From positions 1,240,001-1,304,000 of the forward strand of contig NZ_CP100404.1 in the NCBI RefSeq assembly GCF_024218775.1: DNA of 64,000 bases, written 5' to 3'. The position numbers were made by a program, and so were the translations under genes. Below the pieces are notes generated by a model. It was not told the DNA's origin. It saw nothing but the letters and a program-made list of their open reading frames with translations, and searched no databases. Numbering within the stretch: the stretch's first letter is position 1; each line of letters opens with the position of its first letter. Source of the stretch: Haloarcula marina (GTDB lineage Archaea > Halobacteriota > Halobacteria > Halobacteriales > Haloarculaceae). Below, one piece after another: positions 16,724-26,302 of the stretch.

Positions 16724-17056
16724 TTATGACCCGCTCCCCGGCGGTGTCTTTCGCTCGACGCTCACTTCGAGGTGCATTCCGGGCGGGAGGCCTTCACCGG
16801 CGACGCTCCGGGCGAACTCGTCGTAGCCGACGATGTCTAGCGAGCGCGTGAAGACGGTGTACTCCCACGGGTCGAAGCGGCCGCCATCGGGTCCCAGCGA
16901 CTTCGACTGCGGGACGTGCAGTTTCTCGGGTTCGTCCTGCCGGGGTCCTTTCAGTTGGACGCCTTTGCGCTCGGCGCGGTCTTTGATGTCCGCCACGACG
17001 TCGTCGAGGCGGTGTCGGTCCCCACTCGTGAGTGTCAGGGTCGTGACGAAGGGCAT
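16724..17056 (-). CDS. uS10 (ribosomal protein S10) paralogue
   Basis: A 110-residue protein that aligns by eye over its length with archaeal uS10: an LTSGDRHRLDDVVADI N-terminal helix, GVQLKGP, LHVPQSKS, WEYTVFTRSLDI and GMHLEVSVE. It is clearly diverged from the canonical halophilic S10 I remember. It stands alone rather than beside EF-1alpha in a translation operon. The ATG at 17056 (MPFVTTLTLTSG) matches the expected S10 N-terminus. It could be a specialised ribosomal variant or an antitermination partner like bacterial NusE. Confidence 0.75.
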   Translation of the reverse strand: MPFVTTLTLTSGDRHRLDDVVADIKDRAERKGVQLKGPRQDEPEKLHVPQSKSLGPDGGRFDPWEYTVFTRSLDIVGYDEFARSVAGEGLPPGMHLEVSVERKTPPGSGS

Positions 17057-17250
17057 CTCTGGACGGAGTGTGGCGAGCGCGTGTAAAAGGCCCACCGTTT
17101 CGCGCTTCGTCTCGGCGGCCGGAACTCTGCGGCGTCGCCGGAACGCGTTTAATCCGCCGGTTGCGGGCAGAAAACTGCCGTTCGCGCCCAACCTAGCGGC
17201 TGACGGTGGCTCCGATATTCTCTTAAGTACTGATGTTGTAAAATCCCGTA

Positions 17251-17685
17251 ATGATAGAGGCCACGAGCGCGGGAGCCATCCTCTTTCGCGATACGCGTGG
17301 CCGGCGGGAGTACCTCCTGCTCAAGAGCCGACCCGGCGATTGGGAATTCCCCAAGGGCGGCGTCGAGGGCGACGAGGAACTCCAGCAGACCGCCATCCGC
17401 GAAGTGAAAGAGGAGGCCGGAATCGGTGATTTCCGGCTCTTAGACGGTTTCCGCAAAGACTACGACTACGTCTTCGAGGCGAACGGCAACACCATCCACA
17501 AGACGGTGCACCTGTTCATCGCAAAGTCCTTCGAAGCGTCCGCAGAGCTATCGACCGAACACCGCGACCTGCAGTGGCGCGACTACGACCAGGCAGTCAA
17601 CACCGTCACGCAGGACGGGCCGCGCGAGATACTGAAAGACGCCCACGATTTCCTCGACGAGGAGTTAGAGGACGAGGAAGAGTGA
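17251..17685 (+). CDS. Nudix hydrolase (bis(5'-nucleosyl)-tetraphosphatase-like)
   Basis: A 144-residue pyrophosphohydrolase. The complete Nudix box spans residues 36-58 (G-x5-E-x7-REVKEEAGI), preceded by GDWEFPKG as in Ap4A hydrolases. The C-terminus is acidic (DEELEDEEE). It probably cleaves dinucleoside polyphosphates or another nucleoside-diphosphate compound. The promoter region TCTTAAGTACT lies ~30 bases before the ATG. Confidence 0.9.
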   Translation: MIEATSAGAILFRDTRGRREYLLLKSRPGDWEFPKGGVEGDEELQQTAIREVKEEAGIGDFRLLDGFRKDYDYVFEANGNTIHKTVHLFIAKSFEASAELSTEHRDLQWRDYDQAVNTVTQDGPREILKDAHDFLDEELEDEEE

Positions 17686-18667: not shown

Positions 18668-19705
18668 GTGCCCAGCACCACCTCCGAGTTCGCCTTCGAA
18701 CTGTGCGTCTGTCAGTGGGCCGAACGGGAGTGGGTCCCCGAGCGTGGCGATTCGGCCGTCGTCGTCGCCCGTCAACTCGGGACGAAGTACCGCCGATGGG
18801 ACACCGTCGTCCTCGAATGCGACCCCGAGGGACTCCGAGAGCGGGCGACGTTCGGCGCGGACTCGTTCGACTCCGACCTGTTGCACGTCCTCCGACACGC
18901 GCCCGCCGACTGGACGTACTACCGCGACGCCCTGCCGGACCCCGGCTATCCGTGGCGGTACGTCCGCGAGTCCATCCACGAGGCGGCCGACCGCGACGCC
19001 CTCCGGACGCGCAAGCGCGGCAACCGAATCGAGATTCGACGGCGCACGGCCTACCCCGAGTGGGTCCGCCGAATCGTCGCCGTCGAGAACAAACCCGATT
19101 TGACGGCGAGCGCGGCGCGTGACCTCGCGGGGCAACTGGAACGGGACGTGGCGCTCGGACTGGCCGACGAGGTGTGGGTGGCGACGGCGACGACCGGCGA
19201 GCGCGTCGAACCGATTCTGCTCGCGGACCTGCCTGCGGAGGTGGGCGTCCTGACCGTCGACACCGACGCGGGGACGGCCGCGTCGGCGTGGGAACCGCGG
19301 ACCCTCGCCGCGTCTGGACCGGGCACGCGCATCCTCGAACGACCCGACGACGGCGTGAGCGCGGCCCGCTTCGAGTACGCCGACCCCGAGTGGAAACGGG
19401 AGAAGCGGCTGGCAATCGCCGAGCGAGCGTACGAGCGCGGATGGCGCGCGTACGCGGGGACGATGCGCCCCGACTGTCGACACTTCGAACTCCGGGCGGA
19501 CGAGACGGGGGTGTACCCGTACTGTGCGGCGAAAGACCGCGTGCCGACCCAGAGCGAGTGTCGCGGGGCATGCGCGGCGTTCGAACCCGAACCGCCGGTC
19601 TGGCGCGGCCGCGGGTGGCCTATCGAGGGTGGGCCGGGCCGCAGAATCAAACGGTTGCTCGACACGCGGCGTCGCAGGCGACGGCCGGGATTGCCGGAGC
19701 GATAG
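18668..19705 (+). CDS. Candidate PD-(D/E)XK-type nuclease with a C-terminal cysteine cluster
   Basis: A 345-residue soluble protein starting at GTG 18668. Residues 35-50 (RQLGTKYRRWDTVVLE) and 134-142 (VRRIVAVENK), then RDLAGQLERD and ADEVWVAT, follow the order of a restriction-endonuclease-like core: Asp45, then Glu140-x-Lys142, then a glutamine helix. A second region holds four cysteines (270, 286, 298, 302) in the C-RHF...C...EC-x3-C pattern. These could bind zinc or an Fe-S cluster, as in Cas4/AddB-type nucleases. The C-terminus is arginine-rich. I know no assigned function. Confidence 0.5.
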   Translation: MPSTTSEFAFELCVCQWAEREWVPERGDSAVVVARQLGTKYRRWDTVVLECDPEGLRERATFGADSFDSDLLHVLRHAPADWTYYRDALPDPGYPWRYVRESIHEAADRDALRTRKRGNRIEIRRRTAYPEWVRRIVAVENKPDLTASAARDLAGQLERDVALGLADEVWVATATTGERVEPILLADLPAEVGVLTVDTDAGTAASAWEPRTLAASGPGTRILERPDDGVSAARFEYADPEWKREKRLAIAERAYERGWRAYAGTMRPDCRHFELRADETGVYPYCAAKDRVPTQSECRGACAAFEPEPPVWRGRGWPIEGGPGRRIKRLLDTRRRRRRPGLPER

Positions 19706-19706
19706 G

Positions 19707-20186
19707 CTACGACTCTGTCACTTCCACGTCCACGTCCTCGCGGGCGACGGCGAGCCTGAACGTCGGCACGGTCCGCTGAATCGTCTCGACGAGGCCCTTA
19801 TCCGCGAGGCCGCGGAGAGCCGAACGGACTTCGCCGACCTCGGGGTCCTCGCCCGCCGCTCTGAGCGCGTGCAGCACCGAGACGACGCTCTGACTGTCGT
19901 CGTCCGGGCCAGCAATCACCTCGACGATAACGCTCTGTAGCGGCGTGACCGTCATGGTCTGGACTCGGTCCGAGTCCTCACCGTCGATGAGCGTCGTCGC
20001 TTCGGGCGTCGCGCAGATGAGGCTGTTCTCGTTCCGGTAGTAGTACTCTTTCAGTTCCGATTCGAGGTACTGGTGGACCTCGCTGCCGCTGTCCATGTCC
20101 CACAGGTCCTGTAACTCGCCGTTCTTGGTCGGTTGGTGGGCGACGATGTCGGCGAGTCGCTCGCGGGCCTCCTCCGAGAGGGTCAT
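19707..20186 (-). CDS. Winged-helix-like haloarchaeal protein, possible regulator
   Basis: A 159-residue soluble protein with two helix-turn-helix-like stretches. The N-terminal one is EEARERLADIVAHQPTKNGE, then SEVHQYLESELKEYYYR. The C-terminal one is GEVRSALRGLADKGLVETIQ, followed by a wing-like strand pair. It may be a two-domain transcription regulator or a protein that uses winged helices for protein contacts. Ligand and targets are unknown. It converges on the candidate nuclease gene with a 1-base gap. Confidence 0.65.
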   Translation of the reverse strand: MTLSEEARERLADIVAHQPTKNGELQDLWDMDSGSEVHQYLESELKEYYYRNENSLICATPEATTLIDGEDSDRVQTMTVTPLQSVIVEVIAGPDDDSQSVVSVLHALRAAGEDPEVGEVRSALRGLADKGLVETIQRTVPTFRLAVAREDVDVEVTES

Positions 20187-23648: not shown

Positions 23649-24113
23649 TCAGAGGTCCGCGATGGTGTCGGCCACGTCCTCCCAGTGGCTCCCACGCCAG
23701 AAGTGTTGGCCGCAGTCTCGGCACCGCCAGACCGGTTCCTCGCCGGGGTTCGGCGCGTAGTCGGGCGTCGGTTCCGTCCGGTCGACGCGTTCGAGCGGCG
23801 CGTTACAGGTCCCGCAGTGGCGCGGTTCCTCGGAGAGTTCGAGCGGAAAGCCCGCCGCGGCGAGTTCGCGCAACTGGTCGGCCACCTCGCGTTCGGTCAG
23901 GAGGACCGCGTCCGGCGCGTCGCGGGCGAGTCGCTCGTCCCGCGTGACGAGGCGACGACCCTCGGTTCTGACGAGCGCCAGCACGTCCTCGTCGGCTTCC
24001 GCGTCGCGGTCCAGAGCGTAGGCCGCGTCGTAGCCGCACATCCGGAGGTACGTCGCCAGTTTACCCAGCATCGCGTCGAGCAGGAGCGGGTCCCGCATCT
24101 CCGGTTCACTCAT
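23649..24113 (-). CDS. Mut7-C RNase domain protein with zinc ribbon
   Basis: A 154-residue predicted PIN-fold RNase. The N-terminal two thirds carry the Mut7-C pattern (LLDAMLGKLATYLRMCGYDA; ADEDVLALVRTEGRRLVTRD; DAVLLTE). The last third is a zinc ribbon with CGTC and CRDC pairs. It overlaps the end of polX by 8 bases and is the last gene of a leftward operon, suggesting a nucleic-acid role beside that polymerase/PHP enzyme. Confidence 0.88.
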   Translation of the reverse strand: MSEPEMRDPLLLDAMLGKLATYLRMCGYDAAYALDRDAEADEDVLALVRTEGRRLVTRDERLARDAPDAVLLTEREVADQLRELAAAGFPLELSEEPRHCGTCNAPLERVDRTEPTPDYAPNPGEEPVWRCRDCGQHFWRGSHWEDVADTIADL

Positions 24114-25842
24114 CGAGGAACTCCCTGACGCCGTCGGCGTCGCGCGCGTTCAACACGTCCGCCGTCTCCGCCCAGCCGCGTCGGGCGGTGTGGACACCGT
24201 AGCGAATCTGCGCGAAGTTGCCGGGGCTGTGGGCGTCGGTGTCGATGACGATGGTCGCACCGGCCTCGATGGCCTGCTTGACGCCGCTGCCGCTCAGGTC
24301 CAGCCGCGCGGGACTGGCGTTCACTTCGAGCGCCGTGCCGTTCGCGGCGGCCACGTCCGCCAGTCGTTCCACGTCGACATCGAGGCCGGGACGACGGTTC
24401 AGGTAGCGACCGGTCGGGTGGCCGATGACGTTCACGTCCGGGTGTTCGGCGGCGGCGACGAGACGGTCGGTCCCGTCGCCGTCGAGCGCGGCGTGGGGCG
24501 ACGCGACCACCACGTCGAGTTCGGCGAGCAAGTCGTCGGCGACGGAGATAGCGCCGTCCTCGCCGATGTTGGCCTCGACGCCGGTGAACACGTCGATGTC
24601 GGCGTCCTCGGCGACCGACCGAACCTCTTCGAGTTGCTCCCACAACTCCTCGTCGGGGACCCCCACCCCACCGACCATTCCCGGCCCCGTCGCGTGGTCG
24701 CTGATAGCGATGTAATCGTGGCCGAACTCGGCCGCACCGGCGACCATCTCCGCGACGGTGTTGCCGCCGTCGGACCACTCTGTGTGCGTGTGCAGGTCGC
24801 CGCGTATCTCGTCTTCTTCGAGCAAGTCCGGCAGGTCGTCGTCGACGGCCGCCTCGACTTCGCCGCGGTTCTCCCGCAGTTCGGGCGGCATCCACGTCAT
24901 GCCCAGCGCCTCGTAGACGCCTTCCTCCGTCGCGCCCGCGAGTCGCTCGCCCGCCCGCTGGTCGTCGTCTTCGACGCCCGAAACGTCGAAGACGCCGTAC
25001 TCGTTAACCTTCAGGTCGCGCTCGATGGCCCGGTTGCGGACGGCGACGTTGTGGTCCTTGCTCCCGGTGAAGTACTGAAGTGCGGCCCCGAACTCCTCGG
25101 GGACGACCACGCGGAGGTCGACCCGCACCCCGCCCGCCATCACGCTGGCTTTCGTCTCGCCCGCCTCGATGACGCGGTCCACGTCGGGCCAGTCGGTGAA
25201 CGCCGCGACGACGGCCTCGGCGGCCTCGCTCCCGACCAGTACGTCCACGTCGCCGATGGTCGCGCGCCACCGTCGGAGCGACCCGCCGAGCGCGTACTTC
25301 TCGACCCCTTCCACGTCGGCCATGTACGATTCGACGCGTTCGCCGTAGGGTCGTGCCTCACCGAGTAGCGTCCGCGCGTGGGCCTCGCGGGCGAAGTCGA
25401 TGTTGTCGAGGATGTTCTGTTCCGTCTTCGCACCGAATCCCGACACCGTCTGTATCTCGCCAGCCTCTGCGGCCGCTTCGAGTTCGTCGAGCGTGGTGAT
25501 TTCGAGCGCTTCGTACAGTTTCCCGACCGACTTGGGGCCGACGCCCTCGACGGCGGTCAGCGCTTCCATGTCGACGGGTAGGTCGGCGCGCAGTTCCGCT
25601 AACTCCGCGATTTCGCCCGTCTCGAAGTACTCGACGACTTTCGAGGAGATGGCGTCGCCGACCCCCTCGATTTCACCGACGGCGTCCGCGCCATCCGCGG
25701 CGAGGCCTTCGACGGCCCCGGGATAGTCACGGATGTTCTCGGCCGCGCGGCGGTAGGCCTGCGGTTTGTACTCGACGCCCTTCGCGTCGAGCAGGTCGGC
25801 GAACTCCTCCAGTCGCGTCGCGATTTCGTCGTTTCGGCTCAT
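24106..25842 (-). CDS. polX: Family-X DNA polymerase with PHP domain (PolX)
   Basis: A 578-residue repair polymerase. Helix-hairpin-helix repeats come first (EGVGDAISSKVVEYF near 55-70; EGVGPKSVGKLYEAL near 95-110; SGFGAKTEQNIL), then the nucleotidyl-transferase core (GGSLRRWRATIGDVDVLVGS, and VRVDLRVV for the third Asp). A C-terminal PHP phosphoesterase follows with an intact DLHTHTEWSDGGNT and TDAHS metal site. It should fill gaps in base-excision repair and process 3' ends. It lies 7 bases after the upstream hypothetical gene and overlaps the Mut7-C gene. Confidence 0.93.
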   Translation of the reverse strand: MSRNDEIATRLEEFADLLDAKGVEYKPQAYRRAAENIRDYPGAVEGLAADGADAVGEIEGVGDAISSKVVEYFETGEIAELAELRADLPVDMEALTAVEGVGPKSVGKLYEALEITTLDELEAAAEAGEIQTVSGFGAKTEQNILDNIDFAREAHARTLLGEARPYGERVESYMADVEGVEKYALGGSLRRWRATIGDVDVLVGSEAAEAVVAAFTDWPDVDRVIEAGETKASVMAGGVRVDLRVVVPEEFGAALQYFTGSKDHNVAVRNRAIERDLKVNEYGVFDVSGVEDDDQRAGERLAGATEEGVYEALGMTWMPPELRENRGEVEAAVDDDLPDLLEEDEIRGDLHTHTEWSDGGNTVAEMVAGAAEFGHDYIAISDHATGPGMVGGVGVPDEELWEQLEEVRSVAEDADIDVFTGVEANIGEDGAISVADDLLAELDVVVASPHAALDGDGTDRLVAAAEHPDVNVIGHPTGRYLNRRPGLDVDVERLADVAAANGTALEVNASPARLDLSGSGVKQAIEAGATIVIDTDAHSPGNFAQIRYGVHTARRGWAETADVLNARDADGVREFLDE

Positions 25843-25849
25843 GCTCTCT

Positions 25850-26302
25850 CTATCTCCCGCGCCCGGCACGACCCGTGCCGGAGTCCGCGTCCTGGTGGCC
25901 CAGCGCCTTCTGCAGGAACTTCATCCACCGCTTCGTGTCGGCCGTCTCTTGGGCTTTCGCCTCCGCTTCGAGGTTGGCGGGACCGAGCTGTTCCAGCGCG
26001 TTCAACGCCCGGTCGATACCGATGATGGCGTTGGCGAGTTCCTCGCCCTCCTCGAAGGAGATGTCTCCCTCCGCTATCAGTTCCTTGCGCTCGATGCGCT
26101 CGCGTCGCAGGTTCTTCTTCGCCTCGTCGACTCGTTCGCGCTTGCCGCGCGGAATCGTGTCCCGGCGCTTGATTTCGAACACGAACGACTGGAGGTCGAT
26201 TTCGTCGCCCTGCACGGTAATCTCGTCGGGAATCGCCGCGCCCACGGTCGCGCCCTCCCGTTCGATGCGCTCCAACAACTGTTTGCGCTCGAACTCTTGC
26301 AC
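25850..26302 (-). CDS. Conserved-looking protein upstream of polX, function unknown
   Basis: A 150-residue charged, mainly helical protein: VQEFERKQLLERIEREGATV, DEIDLQSFVFEIKRRDTIPR, then EGEELANAIIGIDRALNALE. It has no membrane segment or obvious metal site. The start is taken at GTG 26302, as a TTG two codons upstream is less likely. It is the first gene of the three-gene leftward operon with polX and Mut7-C, so a link to DNA or RNA processing is possible but rests on position alone. Confidence 0.7.
   Translation of the reverse strand: MQEFERKQLLERIEREGATVGAAIPDEITVQGDEIDLQSFVFEIKRRDTIPRGKRERVDEAKKNLRRERIERKELIAEGDISFEEGEELANAIIGIDRALNALEQLGPANLEAEAKAQETADTKRWMKFLQKALGHQDADSGTGRAGRGR

Follow-up and report, generated by a model that had tools for sequence, protein, structure and literature searches.

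The 64,000-nucleotide stretch of Haloarcula marina DNA analyzed here (the window) contains, at 18668..19705, an open frame that raised the question of whether its product belongs to a nuclease family that had escaped recognition. The original prediction named Asp45, Glu140-x-Lys142 and a glutamine helix after them, in restriction-endonuclease-like order, together with cysteines 270, 286, 298 and 302, and proposed a possible new nuclease family with some resemblance to Cas4 and AddB. All of these residues, Gln156 being the glutamine, are present in the frame, the parts of which are as follows, with the basis of each assignment in brackets.

18668..19705, + strand: gene for a DUF5787 protein, paralogue A, of 345 aa with a GTG start (open frame; PF19100 match, E 1.7e-118)
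18686..18730, + strand: first helix, residues 7-21, in which Glu7 and Glu11 are invariant and Cys15 (18710-18712) is nearly so (DSSP of the model; conservation)
18755..18820, + strand: predicted nuclease-core strands 1-2, residues 30-51, with R35-Q36-x-G38, R42 and the catalytic-type Asp45 (18800-18802) (model; conservation)
18851..19057, + strand: predicted winged helix-turn-helix, residues 62-130, an insert that separates the Asp45 strand from the ExK strand (H-H-H-E-E order in the model; structural alignments; D-to-E span)
19085..19093, + strand: Glu140-Asn141-Lys142, forming the (D/E)xK motif where the predicted third core strand ends (model; conservation)
19106..19156, + strand: predicted second core helix, residues 147-163, which carries Gln156 and Asp160, both invariant (model; conservation)
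19475..19573, + strand: C-terminal four-cysteine region, C270-x15-C286-x11-C298-x3-C302, with the pattern CRHF...PYC...C...C (sequence; conservation; similarity to DUF7140 under the cut-off)
19640..19702, + strand: Arg-rich C-terminal tail, residues 325-345 (sequence; helix 322-337 in a part of the model with low to middling confidence)

Assignment of the protein to a family was straightforward. Its match to PF19100 (DUF5787) scored 395.8 bits against a curated cut-off of 25 bits, and residues 32-307 covered the whole profile. DUF5787 is a haloarchaeal family to which Pfam assigns no function. NCBIfam contained no match for the window protein, none of the families in PADLOC-DB 2.0.0 matched either of the two DUF5787 paralogues described below, and PHROG likewise gave no match for either. 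The claim of a new family was therefore borne out to the extent that the protein is catalogued only as DUF5787, its nuclease activity being putative. The name DUF5787 was not found in a search of openly accessible papers, and papers on haloarchaeal nuclease families or winged-helix insertions, judged by title and the start of the abstract, included none on DUF5787. Thus, although the PD-(D/E)XK superfamily is well known, this family had gone unrecognized as a likely part of it, and what appears to be new for DUF5787 is the predicted nuclease fold, the predicted winged-helix insert and the existence of two diverged paralogues.

Residue conservation was assessed with the family protein from all 220 loci of the set (L001-L180 and L260-L299), which yielded 202 aligned sequences (148 of paralogue A and 54 of paralogue B) after 18 identical copies were dropped; these loci are related to one another and come partly from the same species. 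Six of 40 loci gathered as paralogue B turned out to be paralogue A. In an untrimmed realignment of the distinct homologues, E7, E11, D45, E140, K142, Q156, C270, C286 and C298 were each found in 202 of 202 proteins, C302 in 201 and C15 in 200. Only 28 of 339 columns were invariant across the 202 proteins, and these included every residue just named except C15 and C302. An apparent loss of the cysteine cluster from six paralogue-A proteins proved to be an artefact of hmmsearch domain ends, and the untrimmed realignment restored all of them. Since 80 of the loci (L101-L180) came from a peptide-pattern scan in which one of two patterns contained E140-N-K142, a selection that favours conservation, the count was repeated without them. 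Among the remaining 134 distinct proteins (80 A and 54 B, from 140 loci), the same nine residues were present in 134 of 134, C302 in 133 and C15 in 132. The residues listed in the original prediction are thus invariant or nearly so, D45, E140 and K142 with or without the motif filter, and cannot be put down to chance. Three features can be added to that list: E7 and E11, which are invariant, the conserved cysteine C15 and a predicted winged-helix module that separates D45 from E140.

Conservation of this kind bears on the possibility that DUF5787 has the PD-(D/E)XK fold but no catalytic activity and is retained to bind DNA, as the winged helix could do by itself, or to act as a scaffold. To our knowledge, dead members of the superfamily normally lose their catalytic residues, whereas the catalytic-type residues of DUF5787 are intact in both paralogues (202 of 202 proteins), which makes this reading very improbable.

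A structural model of DUF5787-A was built with AlphaFold2 on 55 aligned family members (the 56 representatives kept, less L041, which was removed manually before they were aligned). The model, to the numbering of which 4 is added for the window protein, had a pLDDT of 88.7 and a pTM of 0.87, with ten-residue block means of pLDDT between 90 and 98 over model residues 1-170. In window-protein numbering, the modelled core begins with helix 7-21, strands 30-38 and 43-51, the second of which has D45 near its start, and helix 53-60. There follows an insert of helices 69-77, 85-88 and 96-108 and strands 112-117 and 120-125, after which the core resumes with strand 133-141 (E140 close to the end of it, K142 immediately beyond), helix 147-163 with Q156 and strand 168-174. 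The canonical PD-(D/E)XK core is alpha-beta-beta-beta-alpha-beta, its Asp lying in the second strand and its (D/E)xK motif in the third. The predicted fold of DUF5787 has this canonical order of strands and helices, with the putative site residues in the corresponding places. Structure prediction, which had been suggested as a check for this fold, thus returned a PD-(D/E)XK topology and no other fold, and the solved structures that align to the core include enzymes of this type.

The insert is predicted to be a winged-helix module of three helices and two strands, placed after the strand of Asp45 and before the strand that leads into ExK. When solved structures were aligned to the model with VIA-align, 42 of the 50 rows shown were confined to model residues 55-126 and were largely winged-helix proteins (MarR, ArsR-type, BlaI, PerR and Z-alpha). 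The number of residues from D to E was alike in the two paralogues (96-97 in 40 A sequences and 91-95 in 15 B sequences). Single-member Pfam hints of GntR (E 0.098) and PaaX (E 0.14) agree with a winged helix and are as weak as matches judged to be due to chance. The latter comprised AtDEF-like (six of 55 members, best E 0.0037), Cas3-like_C (three of 55, best E 0.019) and FhaA_N, LPG_synthase_C and others (one of 55 each).

The remaining eight of the 50 rows spanned the DUF5787 core with Z between 7.3 and 11.6. The highest score was that of 3dnx (Z 11.6, 139 residues aligned, 4.2 A), followed by PaqCI (8em1, Z 10.0, 195 aligned, 5.7 A; 8epx, Z 9.4, 136 aligned, 3.3 A), XisH (2okf, Z 9.4, 110 aligned, 2.6 A; 2inb, Z 9.3, 111 aligned, 2.5 A) and AF2093 (2ph7, Z 8.4, 108 aligned, 2.8 A). 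Because Z below 8 can reflect a common arrangement, the rows for SfsA (4dap, Z 7.4, 112 aligned, 3.0 A) and Card1 (6wxw, Z 7.3, 109 aligned, 3.0 A), like most of the winged-helix rows, are supportive but not conclusive. The structures of 3dnx, XisH, AF2093, SfsA and Card1 are all ones that we take to be PD-(D/E)XK proteins, and 3dnx, which by its own title is of unknown function, presumably belongs to the MmcB family. A plain Foldseek search of the PDB with the model gave no match below E 0.001, and a search of PDB sequences gave no match worth the name. In a library of predicted viral structures, the best match was to a protein named 'MmcB family DNA repair protein' (E 7.2e-4, prob 1.00), with modest TM-scores of 0.28 by query and 0.52 by target, and MmcB was in the names of four of the best 12 rows. 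This best-matching phage protein was itself under the cut-off of the MmcB profile (15.2 of 22 bits), had no PDB match, and in a search for relatives retrieved only a contig that was 100% identical. At the level of sequence, no named PD-(D/E)XK family was among the 12 Pfam families listed for the 55 DUF5787 members; as far as we know, many true members of the superfamily are undetectable by sequence.

The C-terminal region was less informative as a structure. Modelled alone, it gave a mediocre model (pLDDT 77.5, pTM 0.60) that had no structural match in the PDB with E below 0.001 and a best VIA Z of 2.6, with Z of 2 or more in four of 308 chains. The best E in a comparison of the region with PDB sequences was 3.8, which was not counted as a match. 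With a model of this quality, these results do not bear on whether the fold is new. A local likeness was seen to DUF7140, a similarity under the cut-off (18.3 of 27 bits for the window protein) that was noted in 15 of 55 DUF5787 members with a best E of 0.0013. A CRHF...PYC element is common to both, but DUF7140, as encoded elsewhere in the genome of the window, reads C-x2-C-R-H-F...P-Y-C...C, so that the fourth cysteine follows the element in DUF5787 and precedes it in DUF7140. The DUF7140 tail at L243:1498-1662 (- strand) has the reading NYCGNCRHFQY...PYC...C. The shared element favours a small structural metal site in DUF5787, and a single structural zinc ion is the most likely occupant of the four C-terminal cysteines, ahead of an Fe-S cluster.

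A competitor to a zinc site is a Cas4/AddB-like nuclease in which Cys15 and three of the C-terminal cysteines hold a 4Fe-4S cluster. Nucleases of the Cas4/AddB type have one N-terminal cysteine, located in the first helix, and a C-terminal C-x2-C-x5-C, and the Cas4 frame at L213 fits this description with one cysteine near the N-terminus and three, as C-x2-C-x5-C, at the end. DUF5787 resembles these proteins in combining a predicted PD-(D/E)XK core with conserved cysteines, one of which, C15 (200 of 202 proteins), is in the first helix. The claim that all four cysteines are C-terminal was consequently right for the cluster but passed over this fifth conserved cysteine in the N-terminal helix. 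The likeness goes little further, however, since the C-terminal cysteines of Cas4 are three at short spacing whereas those of DUF5787 are four at x15/x11/x3 and already make up a complete ligand set. Two proteins with A15 keep all four C-terminal cysteines and one with A302 keeps C15; thus, in the few cases of variation, C15 does not vary with the cluster. Comparison of DUF5787 and Cas4 profiles with hhalign, using a shallow Cas4 alignment of 25 frames from 30 loci, gave a probability of 0.2%, and the local similarity points instead to the CxxCRHF...PYC...C of DUF7140. An Fe-S nuclease of Cas4/AddB type is therefore unlikely, and the resemblance that the original prediction had put forward with reservations was not backed by sequence, given neither the cysteine spacing of Cas4 nor a profile signal with it.

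Searches of genomes indicated that DUF5787 is nearly universal among the haloarchaea examined. The genome of the window itself falls, by its nearest named loci, in the Haloarcula/Halomicroarcula group. It was found in 55 of 60 genomes, that of the window included, with two matches in 53 of the 55; the two genomes with a single match were 76% and 63% complete. The five genomes without DUF5787 (G036, G043, G045, G052 and G058) are from three families, are 0.9-2.3 Mb in size and are 70-98% complete. All five, which lack both copies, carry Hjc and form a natural comparison set for function. Across the phylum, 80 of 392 genomes were over the cut-off, all 80 in the order of the window and each with at least two matches, while among the misses listed only one (G045) belongs to this order. 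Haloferax volcanii, the control for the search, was among the species in which DUF5787 was detected. Outside the order, only G276 yielded a match with E no higher than 0.001, and the matching sequence (21.1 bits, under the cut-off) was recognized by eye as the zinc-knuckle region of a methionyl-tRNA synthetase and was missed by a second family profile. A pattern-based scan of viral contigs gave no relative of DUF5787, and only one of 72,556 plasmid records, an 828-kb Natronorubrum replicon, contained the gene. Taken over genomes, viruses and plasmids, this distribution looks like that of a chromosomal, vertically inherited haloarchaeal gene pair and, together with the lack of PADLOC and PHROG matches, fits a housekeeping function.

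The same results bear heavily on the idea of a restriction or anti-phage nuclease, which is suggested by the presence of PaqCI, a Type IIS restriction enzyme, among the structural neighbours. A defence gene of this kind would not be expected in two copies in almost every genome of an order, nor without a PADLOC match, a relative in the viral contigs scanned or more than a single plasmid record, and no methylase family was noted among the Pfam matches of neighbouring frames scanned at either paralogue, several of these frames being matchless. Such a role is extremely improbable.

Two copies of DUF5787 that diverged long ago are present in nearly all of the haloarchaeal genomes examined. In the genome of the window, paralogue B is at G000:C1:271315-272208 and is 36% identical to paralogue A. 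The two are separated by one long branch in a tree of 220 sequences (166 A and 54 B, support 1.0), and the A clade of a 55-sequence tree holds 40 of 40 A sequences with support of 0.90. From the co-occurrence of A and B in 53 of 55 genomes, the single split on a long branch and the retention of both sets of catalytic-type residues, it might be supposed that A and B are two subunits of one haloarchaea-specific nuclease. This is a bold supposition and a decidedly unlikely one, as the same co-occurrence would be expected if A and B were housekeeping genes independent of each other; if true, an A+B enzyme with two sites could make paired incisions, for example at interstrand crosslinks or broken forks.

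Gene order around paralogue A was examined within 6 kb at the best-scoring 80 loci of the peptide-pattern scan, some of which end at contig ends and all of which are mutually related, so that the counts below are not independent. The neighbours in the window are as follows.

16724-17191, - strand: ribosomal S10-like domain protein of 155 aa, divergent from the NUDIX gene (65 of 80 loci)
17251..17685, + strand: NUDIX hydrolase, upstream of DUF5787-A on the same strand (67 of 80 loci; median gap 99 bp)
19707..20186, - strand: DUF5797 protein, convergent with and downstream of DUF5787-A (74 of 80 loci; median gap 42 bp)
23649-25869, - strand: Mut7-C RNase-domain gene adjoining a PolX-type DNA polymerase with a PHP domain

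The Mut7-C and PolX genes were found downstream within 6 kb at 21 and 20 of the 80 loci, respectively. At 20 loci of paralogue B, the neighbours (permease, TrkA, metallo-beta-lactamase fold and AAA) gave no functional lead. Several long frames at these loci, which overlap real genes of the opposite strand, are probably spurious products of GC-rich sequence.

Considered together, these findings suggest that DUF5787 is probably a metal-dependent PD-(D/E)XK DNA nuclease with a chromosomal housekeeping function, most likely in genome maintenance, that acts in the manner of MmcB without belonging to that family. Catalysis, DNA as the substrate, the identity of the metal and a part in repair are all putative, and for repair the analogy and the gene neighbourhood (NUDIX, DUF5797 and PolX, the last at 20 of 80 loci) are suggestive at best. 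An active PD-(D/E)XK enzyme with some other task, either RNA processing or turnover or a regulated cleavage of DNA in replication or the cell cycle with the winged helix conferring site specificity, is possible but rather unlikely. Many of the winged-helix proteins in the structural alignment are sequence-specific regulators, and the neighbours are indeed mixed, NUDIX and S10-like genes lying by A and those for permease, TrkA, metallo-beta-lactamase-fold and AAA proteins by B. Nevertheless, the structural neighbours with a role described in the publications cited below, MmcB and PaqCI, act on DNA, and no RNA-binding domain reached the Pfam cut-off in DUF5787. A further candidate role was that of a stand-in for NurA, HerA and NurA being stated in PMC7776575 to be absent from H. 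volcanii. This was rejected when 24 genomes of the order, that of the window included, and the H. volcanii control all proved to have NurA-family (PF09376) matches over the cut-off. The NurA-family match in the genome of the window is at G000:C1:2749478-2750395, and that in H. volcanii is contrary to the statement in PMC7776575.

In PD-(D/E)XK enzymes, Asp and Glu bind Mg or Mn and Lys orients the nucleophile. For DUF5787 as a genome-maintenance nuclease, DNA would be bound by the winged-helix insert together with the basic tail, the latter possibly through non-specific contact of its arginines with nucleic acid. As the winged helix emerges between the two catalytic strands in the model, it may place DNA across the site. 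Asp45 and Glu140, joined by Glu7 or Glu11 from helix 7-21, would hold one or two Mg or Mn ions, Lys142 would position the water that attacks the scissile phosphate and Gln156 would support the active site from the second helix. Zinc held by the four cysteines, or less likely an Fe-S cluster, would shape a small domain beside the nuclease.

The interest of such a protein is that it occurs in two copies in almost every haloarchaeal genome examined, hitherto without a function, and that one of its hosts, Haloferax volcanii, is a model organism for which genetics is established. Haloarchaea are noted for survival of desiccation and radiation (PMC4598649), and HVO_A0006, the subject of PMC4389544, is another PD-(D/E)XK family protein of H. 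volcanii. If the proposed function is correct, a lineage-specific nuclease joins the haloarchaeal inventory for genome maintenance, and the PD-(D/E)XK superfamily gains a further example of a domain inserted within the catalytic core.

Comparison with known systems places DUF5787 beside several nucleases, and membership in the MmcB, Cas4 or Hjc families is not supported by sequence. The residue order of Hjc is Glu in the first helix, then Asp and ExK, an order that was seen in four Hjc frames and is shared by DUF5787. In contrast, there was no profile signal between the two: hhalign comparison of DUF5787 with Hjc (PF01870; a shallow alignment of 23 frames from 30 loci) gave 0.3% for the whole protein, equal to the 0.3% of a shuffled control, and 0.7% for the core against 0.2% for the control, with no aligned motif in either case. 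A separate Hjc is present in 58 of 59 genomes of the order, including that of the window.

The likeness to MmcB, a PD-(D/E)XK endonuclease whose gene is one of two that protect Caulobacter from mitomycin C according to PMC9578287, lies in the similar predicted core fold and in the viral-library match with its modest scores. The difference is that the MmcB profile, PF06319, does not match DUF5787: it did not appear in searches with E limits of 1 and 10, nor is it among the families listed for the 55 members. In 31 genomes, no PF06319 match was over the cut-off and none of the 13 places listed coincided with a place of DUF5787. The four MmcB-named structure matches are 145-192 aa in length and the PF06319 model has 148 positions, as compared with 345 aa for DUF5787; proteins so short would seem to have no room for both a winged-helix insert and a four-cysteine domain.

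PaqCI, as described in PMC10201449, has a PD-(D/E)xK motif, an N-terminal endonuclease domain and a separate C-terminal target recognition domain. Its nuclease domain aligns to the predicted core of DUF5787 with Z of 9.4-10.0, but PaqCI is a restriction enzyme that carries its target recognition in this separate domain, whereas DUF5787 is a chain of 345 aa with a four-cysteine tail.
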